Part shown: piece after piece, positions 431 to 64,000 of the stretch
How positions within the stretch are numbered: position 1 is the stretch's first letter
Layout: every line of letters begins with the position of its first letter
The notes under the pieces: model-generated
What the model was told of the DNA's origin: nothing
Database searches by the model: none
What the model saw: the letters and a program-made list of their open reading frames with translations, nothing else
From: Hyperoplus lanceolatus
Lineage: Eukaryota; Chordata; Actinopteri; Uranoscopiformes; Ammodytidae
Assembly: GCA_026929865.2 (NCBI GenBank)
Contig: CM049404.1
Coordinates: 1,366,501-1,430,500, forward strand
Reading direction: 5' to 3'
Length of the DNA stretch: 64,000 bases
Position numbers and translations under genes: made by a program

Positions 431-25646
<25,216 letters not shown>

Positions 25647-30688: not shown

Positions 30689-30832
<144 letters not shown>

Positions 30833-32210: not shown

Positions 32211-34096
32211 ATGTCTAAAGAATATTTGTTGACTCTTCCTATGGAAGAGAGGACAAGGTATATCCAAAAAATGGATATGGTTGGCCTCCATCAGTGTCTT
32301 TTTTCAATAAAGAAATAAACTTGGTTGAATGATCCAACCCAGTGGCCGGACGTCAACTATATCGACATTTACCACTACTTAATTGAATCACAAGGTAAGA
32401 TATTAATACCGTGAAAAAATCATATCAGTTTGAAATACTGATATGATTTCTGAGTTTAGCGGCACTGTTTATTATTAGCATATTTTTACGGCACGAAGAT
32501 GATGACTGTTAGTTTTAGCTAAATAGCAGTTTGGCTACTAACTGACAAGTTTGTAGTGGGTCCGCACTTTTCTTTTTGCTACATCAATTTCTTTTAGGAT
32601 GCTTAGCCTATTAGCAGTATGATGTGCCTTGCCTGCTCTTTTCCTAAAAGCCCCGACAGTTGCAACATGAGAACCAAATATAGACTACTGACTTGATGGT
32701 GTCATTCCAGGAATATACACAGCTTCAGCAATGAAAAACTACCGTTCCTTGGACGCCCACACTTTTTTCACCAGCGGATGGGTGCAAGTTAACCACAAAC
32801 CCCTAGACATTGACTGTACCATCTTTAAATATTATCCTAAATGCACTTTTTAAATGTGTTCTAACATATCCATGGGTCCACGGTGTGCCTGCCAAAATAT
32901 TTAAAAAAATAACAATCTCTCCTGTTCTCACTCTCCCCCTTTCTGAAACCCCCACCCCTCCCCCCCAATATACTCCAGTCAGAATGTTCCCCTTTTCTGA
33001 CCTCACAAACTGGAAAGCCAGAAGCTTCCACTGTGCACCCCTATTTCTTATTGGTCCACGGCCCTGACAGACAGAGGGCGAGGCGGATCTGGCTTCGCTT
33101 CCGGACAGGGGGCGGGGGCAGCTCAAAGATTGTATATTTACGAGGGGAGCTGCAGCTCTTTTTAAAAAATAGGCCATTGTGAGATTAGCCGAACTTCAGC
33201 ATAGTACAATAAATTATCTGAAAGTTTTTTTCAGCAAACAATTAAAGAAAAACGTATTAGGGACCACTAAGACCATATAATATGGTGTATAATAGTACCG
33301 AAAAGTGTATAATATGGGAGCTTTAAGGAGGTGAAGCTGTCCTGGAGGGTAACACAAAAGCCACATCAGGCATGGGTTGCAGTAAGGAGCAATGGGGCAG
33401 TTGTTGCTGCACACTGCAACTGTATGGCAGGGTAAGTTAATGTAATTTAAACATTTTTCAGTCTCCTCTAACACTTCAAAATAAAGTAATTAAATAAATT
33501 AAACTTCAAAATAAAATTTGATATATTCGAAATGACCATAATTAACTATTATATTAATCCACTTATAAAAATCCAAACATTATCATAAAATATTAACCTA
33601 AATAAAACAACTACACAAAAATTGTTGAATCTTTAAAGTCATGAAAGTGCTTCTGGACTACTCCTTGAAGGCAGATTATTGTAAAATAATGTACATATGG
33701 ATAGTCAAGGCAATGTTTACCCTTTACATTTTTGCACAGTAGAATAATAGTGTCCTGCATTTCTTTGTTTAATTTGAGTGAAATCTTGTTCTTTTTTTTC
33801 ATATCAGGCTTGGTGAGACTTGTTCTCATGTGGGAGCTGTGCTTTTTAAGTTTGAAGCCTCTGTGCGCCTGGGCTTCAATAAAGTGGCTTGCACCAGCGT
33901 CGTTTGTGAGTGGAACCAGGTGTGCACAAAAAAGATTGAGCCATCTCTGTTGAAGGACATTGATTTTTACTGCACATCCTCCAGGCAACATTCCAGCAAA
34001 GCAGCGCGTCCAGTACCATCGGCAACGACATCTCAAAAATTGCAGCTTTTGGAGATGCTCTCTGCAACAAAAACTGGTGCCTGGGTCATGTTGTAG
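32211..34096 (+). pseudogene. SWIM zinc-finger (YqaJ-type companion) protein of the transposon, broken
   Basis: Exon pieces: 32211-32394 (MSKEYLLTLPMEERTRYIQK, then after a stop and frameshift NDPTQWPDVNYIDIYHYL, donor gtaaga); 32711-about 32810 (IYTASAMKNYRSLDAHTFF and TSGWVQVNH); about 33330-33431 (HQAWVAVRSNGAVVAAHCNC, donor gtaagt); and 33808-34096 (LGETCSHVGAVLFKFEASV). The SWIM motif CxC...CxH is complete across the last splice (CNCMAGLGETCSH). The YqaJ nuclease domain expected downstream is absent, and unrelated sequence lies between the second and third pieces. Confidence 0.75.
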
Positions 34097-34203
34097 TTAC
34101 ATTTGGATTGTTTAATGTTTTCTCTGTGTCTGTGTGGTTATGACAGCATGATCCCTTTATTTAGTTATGTCGCAACCATGAATTTAATGCTTGAACAGTC
34201 TAC

Positions 34204-35654
34204 TTACCGAGCGTTAAGCTTTTTGGGGCGCTCAATCCTGATTTCGAAGCAGTCAGTGATGCTTGTCAAACGAGGAAAGCGCAGACTCATTTCGGGGGGC
34301 AAAGTAGAGTGAATGCATTCTCTGTCCGGCCAATGAATAAGGAAAGACATCTTGGTGTGCATGATGTCAATCCATTTGATGAAAACTATTGGATCTGCCC
34401 AGTGCCACTCTGGATTAGCCAACCAATCGCATAACGTTTGGTCGTCACGTGTGTCATGAGCCGGCTTCTGGCAACTGAAACTGGAGCGCGACTTCGACGT
34501 CATCGTTCTCAGCCACTCGCTCTGTTCGCTGATTGGACCGGCTGTCGAATCTCCAGCAAAACTGGGAAATGGGCTGCACACCCAGACTGACTACTGAAGG
34601 GAGAATAAAATTTGGCCGGAAGTAGGCGGGCGGGCGGAGCCAGGCTAGTGTTGAGGTGTTCTGTCTCAGTTTCAGCAGGCAAAGGTACAGCTGGTCTTCT
34701 GACGACAGTTTGCTGAGCTTGGAGAACTTGATAAATTGACTTATGTATGTATGCAGCACATTGATCACAGACCAAGTTACACCACACATCAGCTTGCATT
34801 TTTCATAATTTTCTTTTAAACTGCTAGCTTTAAACTTTCTTTGAGCCTCATCTCTCTCTCTCCTGGCTATATCCCTTTCCTCCCTGAGAACAGTAATTTC
34901 CCAGTTAAGCTGTTCATCTGTTGGGCTGGGCACTTCATTCTCTCCCTCGGTACTTGTGGGCACTTCATTCTCTCCCTCGGTAGGCCTACTTGTAGGCAGG
35001 GCTGTAGTGCTACAGTTCTTATCAACCCTCTCTCTGATGTTCAACCTTCTCATGACAGTGTTTGTGCTGACTTTTCTGTGAGGTAGCAGAGTAGGGATGT
35101 AGTCTGGATGTGATTTCTCATTACTTTTGTGCCCTAAAGGGGCAGCCAAAAAAGAACTATGACACTACACGAAAAAACAACTCTCACAACTCATCTGTTT
35201 AGTTAGCTTTTATTCTTAGCTTGAACCATTATGACATCATGCTTGAGTTTAACGTTAGGACTATGTTAAGGCTTATCAATTCAGTCTCTCTCGTTTGACT
35301 ATTTATAGGCATATGTTTGAGTAGAATGAACATTTTGGTTTTATTCTATAATGTAGCCTATATGGTAGAAACCATATAGGCTATACAATAATTAGCAGGA
35401 GACCATGAGTAGGAAGCCAAACTTATTTACTTACCAGTGACAAAGTGCTGGCTACAAACATAACTGTACTTGGATGCAGGGTCCCAAAGCTTCCAACTTT
35501 GGCTAACTGATCCTGTCTCCTCTCTTCTAATCACCTGTATCCACTGTTTTCGTCTTAACAGATCACGGCTCTTACTTGGTATAATAAAAAAAAGAAATTC
35601 CGGGTTTTTGATTTTGTTGGCTGTACAGCCAACAACACAACAGCTTTTAGGCAT
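34204..35654 (-). pseudogene. THAP-domain DDE transposase of the transposon, broken
   Basis: Exon 1 on the minus strand (35654-about 35432) is a THAP DNA-binding finger: MPKSCCVVGCT, then WKLWDPASKYSYVCSQHF with its C-x2-H pair, donor gtaagt. The next exon (from about 35132) continues HKSNEKSHPDYIPTLLPHRK, a Glu/Arg-rich coiled coil, and SSEDQLYLCLLKLRQNT, a helix-turn-helix start. The frame is then interrupted by a foreign repeat (34,385-34,625). After it, KWIDIMHTKMSFLIHWPDRE and SITDCFEIRIERPKKLNAR follow, with the first catalytic Asp of the DDE_4 nuclease. The frame ends at 34204, so the rest of the nuclease is lost. Confidence 0.8.
34385..34625 (+). repeat. dispersed repeat, copy B, inside the THAP transposase
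   Basis: Same sequence as 22,405-22,640 (inverted). It splits the transposase between its helix-turn-helix and catalytic domains, which shows that it inserted there. Confidence 0.65.
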
Positions 35655-41579: not shown

Positions 41580-42496
41580 CACATCATAGTGACACCGACT
41601 TCAAAGCTTTCTTTTTCCTAAGGAAGGGAAAGCACCTTATTGGCTGGTTTGAATGCAAACACTGCTTGCTGATAAGACAACAAACGCATCTGATTGGATG
41701 AGAATGCATTTGGACCATTTTAAAGGTGAAGTAAGCGATTTATTTATGTTAATATAAGTGTTAAATCGCTCTTTATTCATACAGTGATCACTTACAAAGT
41801 GTGCACGTTTCATAAAGCATAAAATCTCTCAGTCACCTGCTCTGCATGTAATGGGCAAATAAACTTTTCGGGGATCCCAAAACTGATATCCAATCACAAG
41901 AGAGAACGCTACACACCGGCACCCGTCTCACTGCCGGTGCACGCGCAGAGCAACAGATGGGTGAATGTGTATGCGCCTACAATGGCGGAGCAGGTAAAGA
42001 TCCTTCCCAATGTCTGTTTTGATGGTTATTATCACACTTACTTATCTGAGATGATGCTAGATAACTCGCTGCTTGAAGACCACAGTGCATTAATGTGGTG
42101 ACGGGGATGAGGGAGAGGACTGCTAACTTCAGGAAGTTAGCTAAACTGACCATTCTGCTTACTGAACCTTTAATAAGGAACACAATGCTCTCATCTTTGC
42201 CATTCCATCTCGGCGTTTGCCGGACAGGAAGTACCAAAATGCTTAAAACTGAGGCCTCGGGAAAAGTAACCCCAACCTTCAGTCTTTATGCTCGCTGGAC
42301 GAGTTCAGGGTCAGGGGTCAGGCATTTAGTAGTCTGATTGCCCAGGGGTAGAAGGCACAGCCGGCCCGAGGCATAAGCGAACTAAGCGGTTACTCGGGGC
42401 CCCCGACCGCAAGGGGGGCCCCCTCCAAAAAAATAAATATATATATATATATTTTTTTTAGTTTGTGTGTTTGATATTGATCATATTATGCAAATG
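41580..42496. other. intergenic sequence, weak repeat traces
   Basis: It contains aaaggtgaagtaagcgat near 41725, a type of sequence common in fish repeats. At 42362-42450 is a GC-rich stretch with ggggcccccgaccgcaag followed by a short TA run. An ATG followed by gtaaag lies at 41981-41998. None of these supports a gene. Confidence 0.4.
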
Positions 42497-42499
42497 TAA

Positions 42500-45108
42500 A
42501 GGTGTGAACACACCAAACGCGTTTGGTGCGGTGGCGGCGTTGAAAAATCCTATTTTTGCATAGGGAACCGTTGGTTTAGGCGCGATGATGCGTTAGCGGC
42601 GCTTTGGGCGCGGTAGCCGCGTTGCCAAAGCGTCACCGCACGAGTTCAAAAAATTTAACTTTTAACGCTCCAACGCGTGATGTTTAGCCGCGTTGGCCAA
42701 TCAGCGGTGAGCTTGACCTGACGTCACGGACATCGGCACAGTGGGAGCATGGGTGGGAGGACAACACAGAGGCTGAGAAACACAGAGTAGGAAATGCGGC
42801 TGGCTGGTGATATGAAGCCGCTCAGGGTTGGGTTAGAAGACGTGGGGAAAGTGAGCCAGGAGAATGGGCTTCCTGGTTAATTCAGTGAATATAGCGGCTG
42901 TGCTTTAGCCGATAAACCAAGTTAGCACCGGTCGGATAGCGTTAGTTAACTCACCCGGTTGTGTGCGGCCACCACCTCCATAATGAACCCAAACATAACA
43001 GCTAAGTCCGGGGAACTTTCACGAGCACAGCGAAGCACCATTATGCCTATATCTACGCCAGCCACGGTCCCGTCACAGCCAGGTAGGGTAATGTAGGCTA
43101 CTTGCCTTTATTTTCTACTGCCCTGTGCACAATGCTGCTGTAAATGTGTTTGGTATGGTGCTGCCTTGATGTTTGTGTTCATTTCCGAGTGGCGTGAATA
43201 TGCAATGCTGTTTTAAGGCTATTTGTTCCGTTCAGTTGCTGTTTATTTGTCTTTTGGCACAATTGCTGGCCGTGTTGTTGTTGTTTTTGTGTGGACATCA
43301 GGGCCGGCCCTGACCAATTTGGCGCCCTAGGCAAGATTTTGGCTGGCGCCCCCAGTGCATTGCAGTCAGGTCCACCACTGGTCATACACTCACACAGAAC
43401 TGGATAGCTTTGTCTTTGACATTTCATTTTATTTTAGATAGAAAATAACCCACAACATAAAAAAACATATTACAAAACAAGTGACATAACATTAAAAAAT
43501 GAATACAATATTACGATTTGCACAAAAAAATGCAGACGTTAACATTTAAAATTATAATCTATTACAAGTATAGTTTCAATAAATCATAACTTTGCATTGA
43601 ATATAATTCCACACAAAAGCTATATTACAAAATTAAATGACAGAGACCTCTGATTTGTACTGCTATTTAACTTGATTCCAACAGAGAGCTGTGTACATTT
43701 AGATGTTAAGACCTCATCTTCATATCTCAACAAGCTCACCTCACCTTGCTACAGCCTGACTACTCTTGCCTTTGGGTCTATTGGTGAAGCCTTTATTCCT
43801 CATGCTGCATCACTGGGCTGTGCTGAGGTGGAGAAGATGTCTGCAGGACAGGTGGCTCAAAGTATTTCAAATGAAAACCTGAAGAGAAAAGAGAAGTATA
43901 CATGTTGTTATATTATTTATATTAATACATGGTGAAAAGCTTTCAAATGGAAATTAGATAAGATTAAACTCTTGTCATTAAAATGAAATGCAGTTTAGCA
44001 TCCAACAAGAGTGAAGAGAAGCAGTAACTAATTGAAAGCTATAGGCCTAGGTAAGGTACAATCAAACGGAAAAGTTTGCTCCTGCTTTTTATTAAATCAG
44101 AATCAAGCCTTCTGATGATATCTCATGGCTTTATGTATAGCACTTTGATTTACCTTGTGTTGAAAAGTGCCTCACAAATAAACTTGACTTGCCTCAAGTA
44201 TGCAATATTAACAGTTATTATACTGTGCACTTTTAACACTGATGCAAACTAACACAATAAACCCAAGGTTGACAACCATTAATTATAGTGGAAAAGGAAT
44301 AGCTTTCTAATAACCATTACAAGCAGTGCAAACTTTGGCAAATTATGACAGGGGACAGTAGGCTACATGAAAAATATTTCTAAATGCCTCTGATGAATTT
44401 AAGCTGGGAGTAACGTTACCCATCTTTCAAAAGTAAGCTAGCAAGTTAACACACTGCTCCTACAACGGCTAAAACAATGCAGCACACTATTCATTCATCA
44501 CATTAACGTCACTGTTGGCCTACCTCTGTCTTTGTCACGTTTTTCCTCCTCTACTTTTCCTTTTCAGTCTTCCCTCGGCACGAGAGAGCTTTTGTCATTT
44601 TGACATGGCGTGCGCTCTTTTTTTCCGGTTCCGACCGGTGAAGTTACCGTTCAGATACCTGGCTGATCGCCAGAAATCTGGAAGAGTCTATCGGAGGAGA
44701 GGGGGGCGCTTCAATGTTTTGTATAGTTTGTCTATCCTCAGTAGTTGTCATATTTTAAGCTTAACTCATATTTTGAAATTATAGTATTAACAGTATTAGT
44801 AAAAAAAAAAAAAAAAAAGTTTTGGTAGCCCATTTCTTTTTTTTTTTCGTAGCGGCGCCCCCTGCGGATGGATGCGCCCCTAGCATTTGCCTATACTGCC
44901 TATGCCCAGGGCCGGGCCTGGTGGACATGAACGCTGTTGTGTCGGGTCAGGTCTGATCGCAGCCATGGTTGATTAGGCGAATAAATATATCGGGGGAGAC
45001 TAGCTGCGTAGCGTTGGACCATTTTTTGACACAAAATGACCAAGCGCCAGATCAGGTGAGTTGGGCGCTTTGGCCACTGCACCCAACGCGTTTGGTGTGT
45101 TTGCACCT
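42500..45108. mobile_element. Harbinger-like element with TAA duplication, invaded by a hAT
   Basis: AGGTGTGAACACACCAAACG at the left is matched, with two changes, by cgtttggtgtgtttgcacct at the right. TAA flanks both sides (42497-42499, 45109-45111), the PIF/Harbinger target type. It has no transposase. A hAT element occupies 43,299-44,920. Confidence 0.8.
43299..44920. mobile_element. non-autonomous hAT element nested in the Harbinger-like element
   Basis: CAGGGCCGGCCCTG at the left and cagggccgggcctg at the right bound 1.6 kb of sequence that starts with a ggcgccctaggcaag block and ends with a similar inverted block. The 8-bp duplication GTGGACAT is perfect (43291-43298, 44921-44928). Near 44130-44190 lies a SINE/LINE-type tail (aaaagtgcctcacaaataaa). 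No transposase is visible. Confidence 0.9.
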
Positions 45109-50069: not shown

Positions 50070-51689
<1,620 letters not shown>

Positions 51690-59449: not shown

Positions 59450-60790
59450 ATTGGGGAGAACGGGGGAATCTGAGGCATAGGGTAATGTGAGCCACCCACT
59501 GTATCTAGGCAATGGAAAACATTTGTGGTCATGTGAGATATATGTTTTCAAGCCCCTCTCATTTCCCCATGGCCCTGAAAGAGTGGACCTCATGGTGCTG
59601 TGGTAAGCATGTTTTTTTCACCAAAATAGTTATTTTGCATGTAAAAGTAAATGTTATTGCTGTCAACTTAATCAACTGTTGTGCCAAAGCAAATGTATTC
59701 ACGTAGAAAAACGTCTACCATACGTGTTGATGAACTACCAACATATGAAACCATGTGATGCTGCTAACTGAAGATTAGCCTGAGAGGTAAGAGAGGTTAA
59801 TACAGGACCTTGTGTCAGATCAAAGGGTTTTGATTTGATTGATGGGTTTGACCTTTGATCGATTTTATTCCTTTTAGTGTCCATTAGTCCCTCCTGTGGG
59901 AATTGATTGATTGACTTTTGATCGATTTATTCCTTTTAGTGTTAATTATTCCAACTGTATGTCCACCTGTGTCCCCTCTTGGGATTCCCAGTTCTTACAG
60001 GTCTGGGTTTCCCAAGAGGGGTCACAGTTGGTCTCTGGTGGGGGTTCTTTAAGTGGTGTAAGTGTTTTGTACAGTTGGTTGTAAGTGTGTCCCTAGGCAT
60101 TCCTGTGGTGATTTCCGGGGTAATTTTTCCCCGCCCATCTGTCAACGGCCAGTCCACAACCACCTGTCGTGTTGGCCAAGGTTTATATGATCCTATTTTT
60201 GGTTGAGGCCGGTTGATTTGGATTCTGAGAAAAGAGAGAAGCTTTGAGCCATAAAACTATAAACCTGAGAATCAAACACAGTGCAAAGCACAAATCAAAA
60301 TATGTACATTGCCCAGTGTTTTGTTTCTCATCCCTGGATACTCTCTGGTGTGTGTGTGAAAGTGTGGCCCTAGGCATTTCTGTGATGTCACGATTCCCTT
60401 CTCATACCTGGCCAGCTGGTCTCTGGTGGATGTAAGTGCAGCCCAAGGCATACCTGTGAGGTCACGATTCAGATGCCCCATCTGTCAGCCAATGGTCAAT
60501 CCACATCATCTGATATGTGCATTGCTCTGTGGTTGTTTCTTTTATTTTTTAAAAGATTTTTTAAGCCAAGCTAGTATTACTAGTATTAGTATTGGTCCGA
60601 GGGATGCCGTCTTACCAGCAGAGCTATGTATCTATACAACAAAAAGTGTAGAATGTAGAAATTCTTTTAAATGAAGTGTCAACAGCTCCGACAGCTGTTT
60701 AAAAAAAAATTAAAAAGGACAGGGTGTCTGGGTCGACCCCGCTGTTTAGCCAGTGACAAGATAGCAAAGATCTCAATTACAGCCTCAGGT
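59450..60790. other. intergenic sequence with local direct repeats
   Basis: Two copies of a segment around gatcgatttattccttttagtg occur about 62 bp apart near 59,858 and 59,920. A looser unit with a cctaggcattcctgtg-type core recurs near 60,092, 60,371 and 60,441. No gene is recognised. Confidence 0.45.
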
Positions 60791-60791
60791 G

Positions 60792-60797
60792 TATAAA
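60792..60797 (+). promoter_or_regulatory. TATA box of the three-exon gene candidate
   Basis: TATAAA lies 54-59 bases before the ATG at 60851, a spacing that allows a start site near 60,822 and a short 5' UTR. The assignment depends on the gene being real. Confidence 0.4.
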
Positions 60798-60850
60798 CAA
60801 CAAACAACCAAAAGTGCAAAGACGCTATTGATCTGCCTTGGATTTAACAG

Positions 60851-61736
60851 ATGTTAAGAGGGTTTAAAAATACAAGGTTAGCCCTCAAGAAATCACTCCG
60901 ACATCCGGCTGCTGGTATGTTAAAACTTTGATTTTTTTCGTATTCATTCAAATTTGCTGTACAACATGTTTTCTTTATAATTCTTGATATTATTTCAGAA
61001 TCTTATTGCCGTCAAACTCTACTGCATCATCAAGTGGAATCTTTTCGTCAGCAAGAACAAGAAAATGTCCAGGTTGATGAACAAACTTTGATGGACAACA
61101 ATGGTAAATATAAATAGGTTAAACATTAAAAAAGTTAACATTTTTGATTACTCCAATACACACTAACATTTTTGAATACTCAAACACACACGCTAACATT
61201 GTGTTTTATTTGTTTCAGATCCCTACGAGTCTGACATAGACCCGAATTTGTTCGACGATATTTGGCCAGCGGAAGAACACAACGATTTAACAACGCAGCA
61301 CGGTGGAGAGGCCGACGATGTAGAAGCAGAACCAACAGTAGAAACACCAGAGAGGCAAGATCAGAGACCCCCGCAACGGCCCTACAGAGCATTCGCCCGT
61401 GTACAACCATCACAATGCGTGGTGCCTATCGACCTACACAGGCCACCGTCGGAGGCAGGAACTCTTCACTCCGTTGACGCAGTGATCCTTGACACGCCTC
61501 CGCCCAGCCAGCTAGAACCAGCCGTGGAAAACGCTGCCCAACCTGTCCTGCAACAGAGTCCACAACACACCCCGAGTGACGGGACGTACGCCCCTCCGTC
61601 TTCCCCTGATGTCCAATACCAGCGCCGTGTGATTCGCCGCTGGCTTTACAGAGACTGCGTTGATCGGGCAGCGAGATTCAGAGAGGTGGAGAGACGTATT
61701 GTGACAGAACGACACGCCAGGGGTGAGTGCTTCTGA
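60851..61736 (+). CDS. unrecognised three-exon protein, 228 aa
   Basis: Exons 60851-60914, 60999-61103 and 61219-61736 join in one frame. Both introns are in phase 1 and short (84 and 115 bases), with good sites (gtatgt...tatttcag; gtaaat...tgtttcag). The protein starts MLRGFKNTRLALKKSLRHP (basic), then has a Gln-rich stretch (HHQVESFRQQEQENVQVDEQ), an acidic stretch (DPYESDIDPNLFDDIWPAEE), a long Pro/Gln-rich middle, and a basic C-terminus with RVIRRWLYRDCVDRAARF. A strong donor (ggtgagt) at 61723 could add further exons beyond the TGA at 61734-61736. I recognise no domain. It may be a fish gene, or part of an unknown mobile or viral element. No signal peptide or membrane segment is visible. 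Confidence 0.55.
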
Positions 61737-62163
61737 GACACTTACGCCGTTTCTCAATTCGCGTTCTTTTCTGTACTTGTGTACTTGCGTTCTCGTAAAA
61801 CGTCATCAACCGTAGCCCAAGTACTGTTCCAATTCAAAGTTCGCATCAAGTCAAGTACCCGGAAGTGTTCCTGATGTGTTCTTCAACTGGCCATTCTATC
61901 GAGGATGCATCGGTGGTGACTCGTGCGGACTTGGGGCCGTTAGATATCCCAGAATGCATTTCGCAGCGTAGTAGCAGAGCAAGGAGGCAGAGTCGGCAGA
62001 GGCGGACAAGGCGGAGAAACCCACAACTGTAAGCATAATTATTACTATTTTATAAATACTACTTTTGTTTCAGAATACCGGTATGTTGTTTTGAAGTTTT
62101 TATTAGATGATAATTTAATTCTCCAACCTGTCAAATCCTACTTAGCTCCGTAAACGTCCGACT
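61737..62163. other. intergenic sequence, possible repeat
   Basis: The part near 61,745-61,950 (gtttctcaattcgcgttctt, ccaattcaaagttcgcatca) looks like a dispersed fish repeat, but no terminal repeats were confirmed. Confidence 0.35.
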
Positions 62164-62329
62164 GCTAGCTTGCCCAGCTGTCCCACGGGATTTCTAGCTT
62201 CCCCCGCGGGACAGCTAGCTTGCCCCGGGGGATTTCTAGCTTCCCCCGCGGGACAGCTAGCTTGCCCCGGGGTATTTCTAGCTTCTCCCGCGGGACAGCT
62301 AGCTTGCCCCCTGGGACAGGGACAGCTAG
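62164..62329. repeat. GC-rich minisatellite, 42-bp unit
   Basis: Units start at 62164 (50-bp variant), 62214, 62256 and 62298 with gctagcttgcccc, followed by ggatttctagcttcccccgc and gggaca. The two central units are nearly identical. Confidence 0.92.
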
Positions 62330-62659
62330 TCCCGTTTGGGGGTGCAAAGTTGTGGTTCATAACCGTATGGTGAATTGCCCTAATGTGGGACACTGCTTAT
62401 AAGGTCCATCGCATTTATCTCCTATTTCTGACACATGTTAATAGATAATATTGTTGTCAAATCCAAGCAGGGGTTCCCTGTGATTGAAATCACATGAATT
62501 CACAAATCAATGCTAAGGCTCTACATTTGAATGGTATCAAGTATTGGTCAAATGTATTGGCTTGATATGTTAATATATTACATAAGTTGTAATTGCAAAT
62601 ACTGTCCTCACCCTATGTTTTTTATGTTTACTTTATTATACTAGCTATGTTTTTTGAGC
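62330..62659. other. intergenic sequence, nothing recognised
   Basis: Non-coding; no repeats identified. Confidence 0.5.
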
Positions 62660-64000
62660 AAATTGTTTTGATTGATTTGATTTGATTTGTGTATGGACAT
62701 GACAATGACATTGGACGAACCAGATGCAATGTTTTCAGTGTATTAGCATAAAAGCTAGTTTACAACACCTGTCCACAGGAGGCTTTTAAAAACAACAAAA
62801 TAAACAAGTCAAAACAAAAACAAGATCAAAATACTGATAAAAACTGACAATTAAAAGAGTAAAAATGCAGAATACAATGGAGTACAGAGCAGCAATATAA
62901 TGAGTCAAATATATATATATATATATAGGCTACGTAGAGTAAAATAAAGGCAGCATGATCAAACAATACACCAGTTGTAAATTATTTGTGTGAGCACTGT
63001 TGATTTGATTTGAGCCGTTGTTTAAGTTCTCTGTTAAAAGTGCTGCTATTAGTCTCTAGTTTTAGACTAGTGGGCAAGAGGTTCCACAATTTTTCCCCTT
63101 TTGCAGAGAAAACAGACTGAACGAAACACTGCTCGTGTATTTGCCCGACGAGAGCTCTGACGTCTGATGGCCAATTCAGACAACAGTGGTGACACATGGT
63201 TATTTACACACTTGAAAAAACAATTTAAGATTACTCAAATTAATAAAGTTATCAAAGGTGAAAAGGTTGTGTTTTTTTAGAATGCCACAGTGATGCCATC
63301 TCATGGGTTTCCGGTCCATGACTTTTATTGTCTGTTTGTATATTGAAAAGATAGGTTTTAATGTGGTAGAAGAAGTTTGTGACCATGATGTGATACAGTA
63401 TGACAAATGAGAAAAAATCATAGCGTGCATAAATAATTTGGCCGTTTGACATGACAAGTCCCCTCTTATGAAACGGAAACAGTTTAGATTTAGTTTGACC
63501 TTCTTTGCAACATACTTGACCTGCGTAACAAATTTTAAATTCTTATCCAGAATGATGCCCAGATATTTTACTTCATTTACTGATTCAATTAATTCATTTT
63601 TGATCCGTACCTCAAAACATCGGTGACTATTACGGATGGAGAAGCACATAGAGACGGTTTTCTTCACATTAATGGTCAACTGAGACAGCTCAAGCCATTT
63701 TGAAATGCTGAGTAATGCTTGTGTCAGGTGCTCACCTGCAATGCTGGGTGTTTTACTGGACACATGGATAACAGTGTCATCAGCATACATTTGACAGTTG
63801 GACCCCGGACAGCAGTTTGGTTGGTCATTGATATACATAGAAAACAACAGTGGACCAAGTACAGACCCTTGCGGTACTCCCGTGCTGCTGGCACGCAGAT
63901 GGGACCTGACCCCATTGACCCTGACACATTGCTCTCTCCCCTCCAGGTAAGATGTAAACCACTGCAGAGCTTCTGATGACATTTTGAACTGTTTTAACTT
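62660..64000 (-). mobile_element. jockey-superfamily LINE, minus strand, continues beyond window
   Basis: The 3' end on the minus strand is a caaatcaaatcaaatcaatc tail near 62,660-62,690, preceded by a 3' UTR with a TA repeat near 62,910. Coding sequence covers 62,982 to the right edge. Confidence 0.8.
62982..63982 (-). pseudogene. LINE reverse transcriptase, 3' part
   Basis: The minus-strand frame from 63982 to 63200 covers [54 protein letters not shown] with intact YADD, and EVKYLGIILDKNLKFVTQV. A frame break near 63,200 separates the last block (62,982-63,197), which reads FSAKGEKLWNLLPTSLK. The 5' part lies outside the window. The block order is that of CR1/L2/Rex1-like LINEs; the exact clade is not resolved. 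Confidence 0.85.

Follow-up and report, generated by a model that had tools for sequence, protein, structure and literature searches.

Two coding exons of a candidate low-copy gene in front of a Harbinger-type transposon in Hyperoplus lanceolatus

What is the interrupted open frame that lies directly in front of a transposon in Hyperoplus lanceolatus: a gene, a piece of one, or a chance arrangement of codons and splice-like signals? The window, by which we mean the whole 64-kb stretch of DNA analysed here (C10:1366501-1430500, in a searched genome of 806.7 Mb and 527 contigs), was originally predicted to hold a three-exon gene that might be a host gene, a captured gene or the gene of an unknown element, and leaving its identity open proved right. 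Joining 60851-60914, 60999-61103 and 61219-61736 indeed yields 687 nt in one frame, that is 228 codons and a stop, and bears out phase 1 for both introns (Table 1). With approximate weight matrices, not those of a tool, the donors at 60915 and 61104 score 7.5 and 5.9 and the acceptors at 60999 and 61219 score 7.2 and 8.3, each outranking 95.6-98.2% of the window's GT or AG sites; splice sites that had been called good are good, not exceptional. The introns have a G+C content of 23% and 25%, exon 3 one of 57%, and intron 2 contains a 28-bp tandem duplication at 61136-61200.

Table 1. Features of the candidate gene, of the DNA behind it and of related loci (window positions unless a contig is named)
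Feature	Position	Strand	Observation
TATAAA, possible TATA box, weak	60792..60797	+	sequence
Exon 1 as originally predicted, coding status uncertain	60851..60914	+	homologous to C13 DNA, alignment 69%, gaps 2, 3, 60
Intron 1, phase 1	60915..60998	+	82% identity to C13 relative, donor and acceptor kept
Exon 2, coding	60999..61103	+	66% identity to C13, gaps 6 and 3 only; period-3 jointly with exon 3
Intron 2, phase 1	61104..61218	+	73-78% identity to C13 over 77 aligned columns
Exon 3, coding; acidic block, Pro/Gln-rich middle, basic end	61219..61722	+	period-3; first 160-180 nt alignable to C13
Probable intron 3 start, donor GGG/GTGAGT	61723..61745	+	score 10.0
PIF/Harbinger-type transposon, ~2.9 kb, left part	61746..62672	+	resumes at 67242-69239 past the window, split by nested LINEs; DDE_Tnp_4
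LINE nested in Harbinger-type transposon	62673..64000	-	runs on to ~67241; RVT_1 at 63200-64000 and L004:1875-3110
Four dispersed loci, shared two-part gene	C13:28459102, C13:32198246, C1:7953063, C14:6485798		integrase-like remnants

The in-frame joins had been held unlikely to arise by chance, a view that the controls do not sustain. A mechanical gene-model scan of the candidate region reached 39.5 bits, with a four-exon model unlike the predicted one, and none of 200 block shuffles came as high (largest 27.9), yet 16 of 180 tiles of the window gave equal or better models. Many of these tiles overlap transposon or kcnq2 coding sequence, and at least two (10501-11900 on the plus strand and 41601-43000 on the minus strand) fall where no gene was identified. 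Since so many tiles match the score, the joins alone prove no gene.

Exons 2 and 3 are nevertheless coding. Jointly they have a three-base periodicity with P = 4.8e-7, and exon 3 has one with P = 0.0006, the candidate frame being the best of six; the signal in exon 3 is carried by its 5' half (P = 0.003), and the 3' half alone gave no significant periodicity (P = 0.14). Values below 0.01 were reached by 8 of 12 known coding ORFs versus none of 14 long ORFs taken as non-coding, a fifteenth presumed non-coding control (16498-16857, P = 0.0043) having been left out as it proved to be a kcnq2 exon. Of 3000 dinucleotide shuffles, 2 (0.07%) left the frame of exon 3 open, and 2.9% of the exon 3 shuffles produced an ORF of that length in any of the six frames. 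A codon score in which stops were not counted was reached by 4 of 300 shuffles for exon 3; this score is not specific, because the presumed non-coding ORF at 15791-16177 on the minus strand, reached by only 1 of 300, does better.

Both ends of the predicted gene are less secure than its middle. A TATAAA is present 53 nt before the ATG, as claimed for a TATA box, but it is weak alone because the window has 25 copies on the same strand, and it is not common to the relative on contig C13 described below, as the match to that relative starts only at about 60821. Exon 1 is not supported as originally predicted: an alternative first exon at 60671-60788 scores as well (38.1, versus 36.0 for the exact predicted model), and the frame of exon 1 is not kept in the C13 relative, where its ATG is followed by a stop after five codons. 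An acceptor-like AACAG, common to the relative, directly precedes this ATG. Exon 1 and the TATA box are weakly supported. At the other end, the donor at 61723, which lies 14 nt before the end of the claimed stop, is better than 99.66% of the 3775 GT sites of the window (top 0.34%) and has phase 1 like the other two introns. Because of this strong donor just before the stop and the transposon directly behind exon 3, the 3' end was probably misplaced in the original prediction.

The DNA from 61746 onward belongs to a transposon family for which 40 places were scored, the window copy included, out of 83 candidates, with long matches 92-98% identical. Two of the three copies taken at greater length have terminal inverted repeats, and the match to the other copies runs only rightward from about 61731-61746, which places the candidate exons outside the terminal inverted repeats; no target-site duplication was evident by eye. 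Three proposals for this region were rejected: a fourth-exon candidate at 62074, which lies inside the transposon; an inverted repeat between exon 3 and downstream DNA, whose right arm also lies inside it; and, from 61746 on, a CpG-rich promoter behind exon 3, the DNA there being the young transposon. A 21/42-bp tandem repeat occupies 62187-62319 within the element.

In the genome, the candidate DNA has, besides its own place, two inverted matches on C13 that start 3.6 kb apart, at 74% over 60908-61156; a protein search of the genome with E up to 10 returned the same places only. The two C13 places are the arms of one palindrome and are 99.3% alike over 1.2 kb of the gene. This palindrome, at C13:10.48 Mb (L005 3281-8665 with L006), has arms about 95-99% identical, holds two copies of the C13 relative and could be real or an assembly artefact. 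The candidate therefore has three places at two loci, its own and the palindrome arms, where hundreds of copies with random frame breaks had been named as a sign against a gene; frame and splice sites are kept against the C13 relative, and the many dispersed copies of a multi-copy transposon gene were not found.

Comparison with this relative suggests a constrained protein. Over 92 codons dN is 0.48 and dS 1.01, a dN/dS of about 0.47 that is rough, dS being close to saturation and no more than 38 of the 92 residues identical; pN exceeded pS in 0.7% of 1000 bootstraps. Confidently aligned exon gaps measure 6, 3, 3 and 3 (not counting a gap of 10 where the exon 3 block was cut), intron gaps 1, 8, 1 and 37. 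With dN below dS, exon gaps in threes and the frame kept, the candidate protein looks constrained. The introns, however, are more alike than the exons, with 125 of 161 positions identical (78%) versus 174 of 282 (62%; P = 0.0007, or P = 0.0002 with the counts of another alignment), and the synonymous sites differ far more than the introns, which simple selection does not account for. One way to obtain introns more alike than synonymous sites is an exchange of exon segments with homogenised introns. Within exon 3, the first part is 59-62% identical to C13, and the last two thirds, at 37%, fall below their own shuffles and give no alignment.

How does the relative go on where the window copy meets the transposon? 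In C13, exon 3 ends in a donor AGG/GTGAGA (score 8.8), followed 79 nt on by a weak acceptor (2.7) and then by an open fourth exon of 151 codons in the forward arm and 126 in the reverse arm. In the reverse arm an AATAAA begins 15 nt after the fourth-exon stop; the forward arm has none within 600 nt. A single-base difference in a G run of exon 3 separates the arms, and the frame in which exons 3 and 4 join therefore differs between them: the third donor, of phase 1 in the window, has phase 0 in the forward arm and is displaced by a single base in the reverse arm. From 40001 to about 113900 in window numbering, nothing homologous to the fourth exon of C13 was found.

With the C13 DNA as query, four more loci emerged whose likeness to it begins inside exon 3 and is confined to its 3' half, at 90-92% identity (Table 1). 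These four have another upstream stretch in common, 94-97% alike and distinct from that of the C13 relative, and a fifth place, at C1:13.43 Mb, holds only 171 nt of this stretch. Across the join the reading frame does not change, either in C13 or in the element copies. Of the four loci, one has an open fourth-exon frame, another an open but shortened one and two a broken one; in the C13 frame, three of the four have a stop near the end of exon 3. The 5' part of the four-locus gene encodes a Cys/His stretch, CYGCETDHPSQ, and had no Pfam match in the two copies scanned. All four loci carry, 0.2-1.2 kb behind the gene, a putative integrase-like remnant, labelled so by a motif that no profile confirmed. 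The 3' part of exon 3 is thus unrelated between C10 and C13, one such pair having been compared, and that of C13 is common to four other loci, none of which the window exons match; the C13 relative therefore looks chimaeric, its 5' half resembling the window copy and its 3' half the elements.

Beyond this genome, a search of 5.8 billion proteins with the candidate protein of the window as query, covering relatives of 125-399 and of 265-843 aa and requiring shared five-residue words, gave no homologue, in other fish or elsewhere; the lack of fish homologues had been named beforehand as a point against a gene, and here the outcome is indeed adverse. A hAT-type transposase used as control gave 1883 protein matches, with many fish among the 120 listed, and because this shows many fish proteins in the database, the two negative searches carry weight. 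The earlier remark that the protein has no known domain holds: it is without a match in Pfam, PDB or viral contigs, and its PHROG search gave one chance-level match only (E 0.15). Other frames and the C13 exons gave weak Pfam matches, all below the cut-off with E no better than 0.0075, and there were weak PDB matches at E 0.13-1.3; both were taken as chance. The C13 fourth exon had no relative in viral contigs, nor was a pattern from the transposon end found in these; searches of the DNA against phage records, and for Rfam families and tRNAs, likewise returned none.

In its make-up the protein is as originally described, with an acidic block, a Pro/Gln-rich middle, a basic end and, if exon 1 is coding, a basic N-terminal end as well. 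The acidic-block stretch is partly conserved in C13 (SDI...F.D.W...H.DLT) and has, by eye, an F-x3-W spacing that may be p53-like. Structure models are poor (pLDDT 58 and 44); for exon 3 alone AlphaFold predicts, with little confidence (mean pLDDT 58), a long C-terminal helix. Going by composition alone, the most likely role, and no more than a guess, would be that of a disordered adaptor or activator whose end is basic and helical, and which is exposed to shifting selection, for example through conflict with pathogens or mobile elements. The ratio of observed to expected CpG is 0.90 over 60550-62340, versus a window mean of 0.47; it is 0.97 in exon 3, 0.45 in a kcnq2 exon and 0.16-0.63 in nine transposon regions, and the left flank is CpG-poor. 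The high CpG of exon 3 could mean either a recent arrival or an unmethylated gene start.

Elsewhere in the window, kcnq2 exons lie at 16498-16857 and 24744-25646 on the plus strand (Pfam KCNQ_channel and KCNQ2_u3, ankyrin-G binding motif), so this host gene covers part of the first 26 kb. The hAT-type (ZBED5/SCAND3-like) transposase ORF spans 18255-19361 on the plus strand and has a Gadus morhua match of 91% over 59%. The segment at 33611-35164 on the minus strand is, by eye, possibly a second, degraded transposase of Harbinger/ISL2EU-like type; Pfam gave nothing on two pieces of it. Long CA/TG runs, a kind of repeat reportedly prolific in cod, occur at 5984-6055, 7953-8072, 30699-30828 and 50072-50181.

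Which explanation best accommodates these observations? We think it rather probable that 60999-61722, together with some upstream exon, is the 5' part of a real coding gene, a member of a low-copy, probably lineage-restricted and fast-evolving family. Such a gene would have run through the donor at 61723 into further exons, and a Harbinger-type transposon, later filled with LINEs, would have landed 23 nt behind this donor. With the transposon in that place, the window copy would have to be spliced across more than 7 kb unless it is truncated, and truncation is the more probable. The family would be modular, with a disordered N-terminal half, acidic and then Pro/Gln-rich, and a helical C-terminal half that was seemingly exchanged in frame within exon 3 at C13. 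That open frame and splice sites coincided by chance is very improbable: the tiles that reach the gene-model score and the shuffles of exon 3 with an equally long ORF would allow it, but they leave the frame and splice sites kept in the C13 relative, and dN below dS, without an explanation. The odds are about even that the window copy is a pseudogene remnant, once coding and dead since the transposons cut off its last exons; it ends at the transposon and has no fourth-exon homologue within the span searched, but 225 codons are still open, and the cut may be recent, given that long matches among the transposon copies are so much alike.

Other readings concern the origin of the family; all these alternatives overlap, so that our odds do not sum to one. 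Somewhat less than evenly likely is an ordinary host gene of one lineage, which was duplicated and whose C13 copy later fused with an element gene by recombination. Its low copy number and kept introns speak for this, as does the contrast of exon 3, behind a CpG-poor left flank, with a kcnq2 exon, as near an unmethylated promoter; the high CpG could equally mean recent arrival, however, and a homologue of 125-843 aa is missing from a database with many fish. An accessory gene of a DNA-virus-like mobile element of Maverick or adintovirus type, left as a fragment, appears unlikely. The dispersed 3' half of C13, with its shared upstream stretch and with integrase-like remnants at all four loci, argues for such an element, but the integrase label comes from a putative motif, and no such remnant was found in the window, in the C10 DNA covered up to about 113.9 kb or within the palindrome on C13, nor do the window exons match the four loci. 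Vertebrate Mavericks carry accessory regions with diverse ORFs, which would suit this origin, although intact ones reportedly showed no introns (PMC8097293). Still more doubtful, if far from negligible, is the more specific proposal of a modular, intron-bearing gene that moves between host and virus-like elements; fish DNA-virus-like elements would have it as a spliced accessory gene, and its N- and C-terminal halves would be swapped in frame between members, with the introns conserved.

What would a gene of this kind teach us? Genes without homologues are easily missed by annotation; in this case a conjecture made on the bare sequence brought to light a relative whose introns are conserved and whose exons evolve fast, and also an apparent in-frame exchange with seemingly virus-like elements. 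The candidate is a concrete, checkable case of gene birth or of gene exchange between host and element in fish; should it be no more than a truncated orphan duplicate, it would be ordinary.

Among the closest known systems are the teleost-specific genes of zebrafish, which are reported to have few exons and to be enriched for immunity (PMC3599513). Like the taxonomically restricted (orphan) genes treated there, the candidate is short, has few exons and no known domain, and had no homologue in our searches; it differs in having introns more alike than its exons and a C-terminal half that varies between loci. In evolutionary pattern only, it recalls the viperid three-finger toxin genes with exon segment switching, in which highly similar introns accompany sharply different exon segments (PMC2474615); here there is one pair of relatives only, and the likeness implies neither a sequence relation nor a toxin function. 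The accessory region of vertebrate Mavericks/Polintons comes to mind in that four loci with the C13 3' half carry integrase-like remnants, whereas the window copy, with two conserved phase-1 introns and no adjoining remnant, differs from the intact, reportedly intronless elements (PMC8097293). PIF/Harbinger transposons, finally, are represented by the one directly behind exon 3, and the candidate exons lie outside that element.
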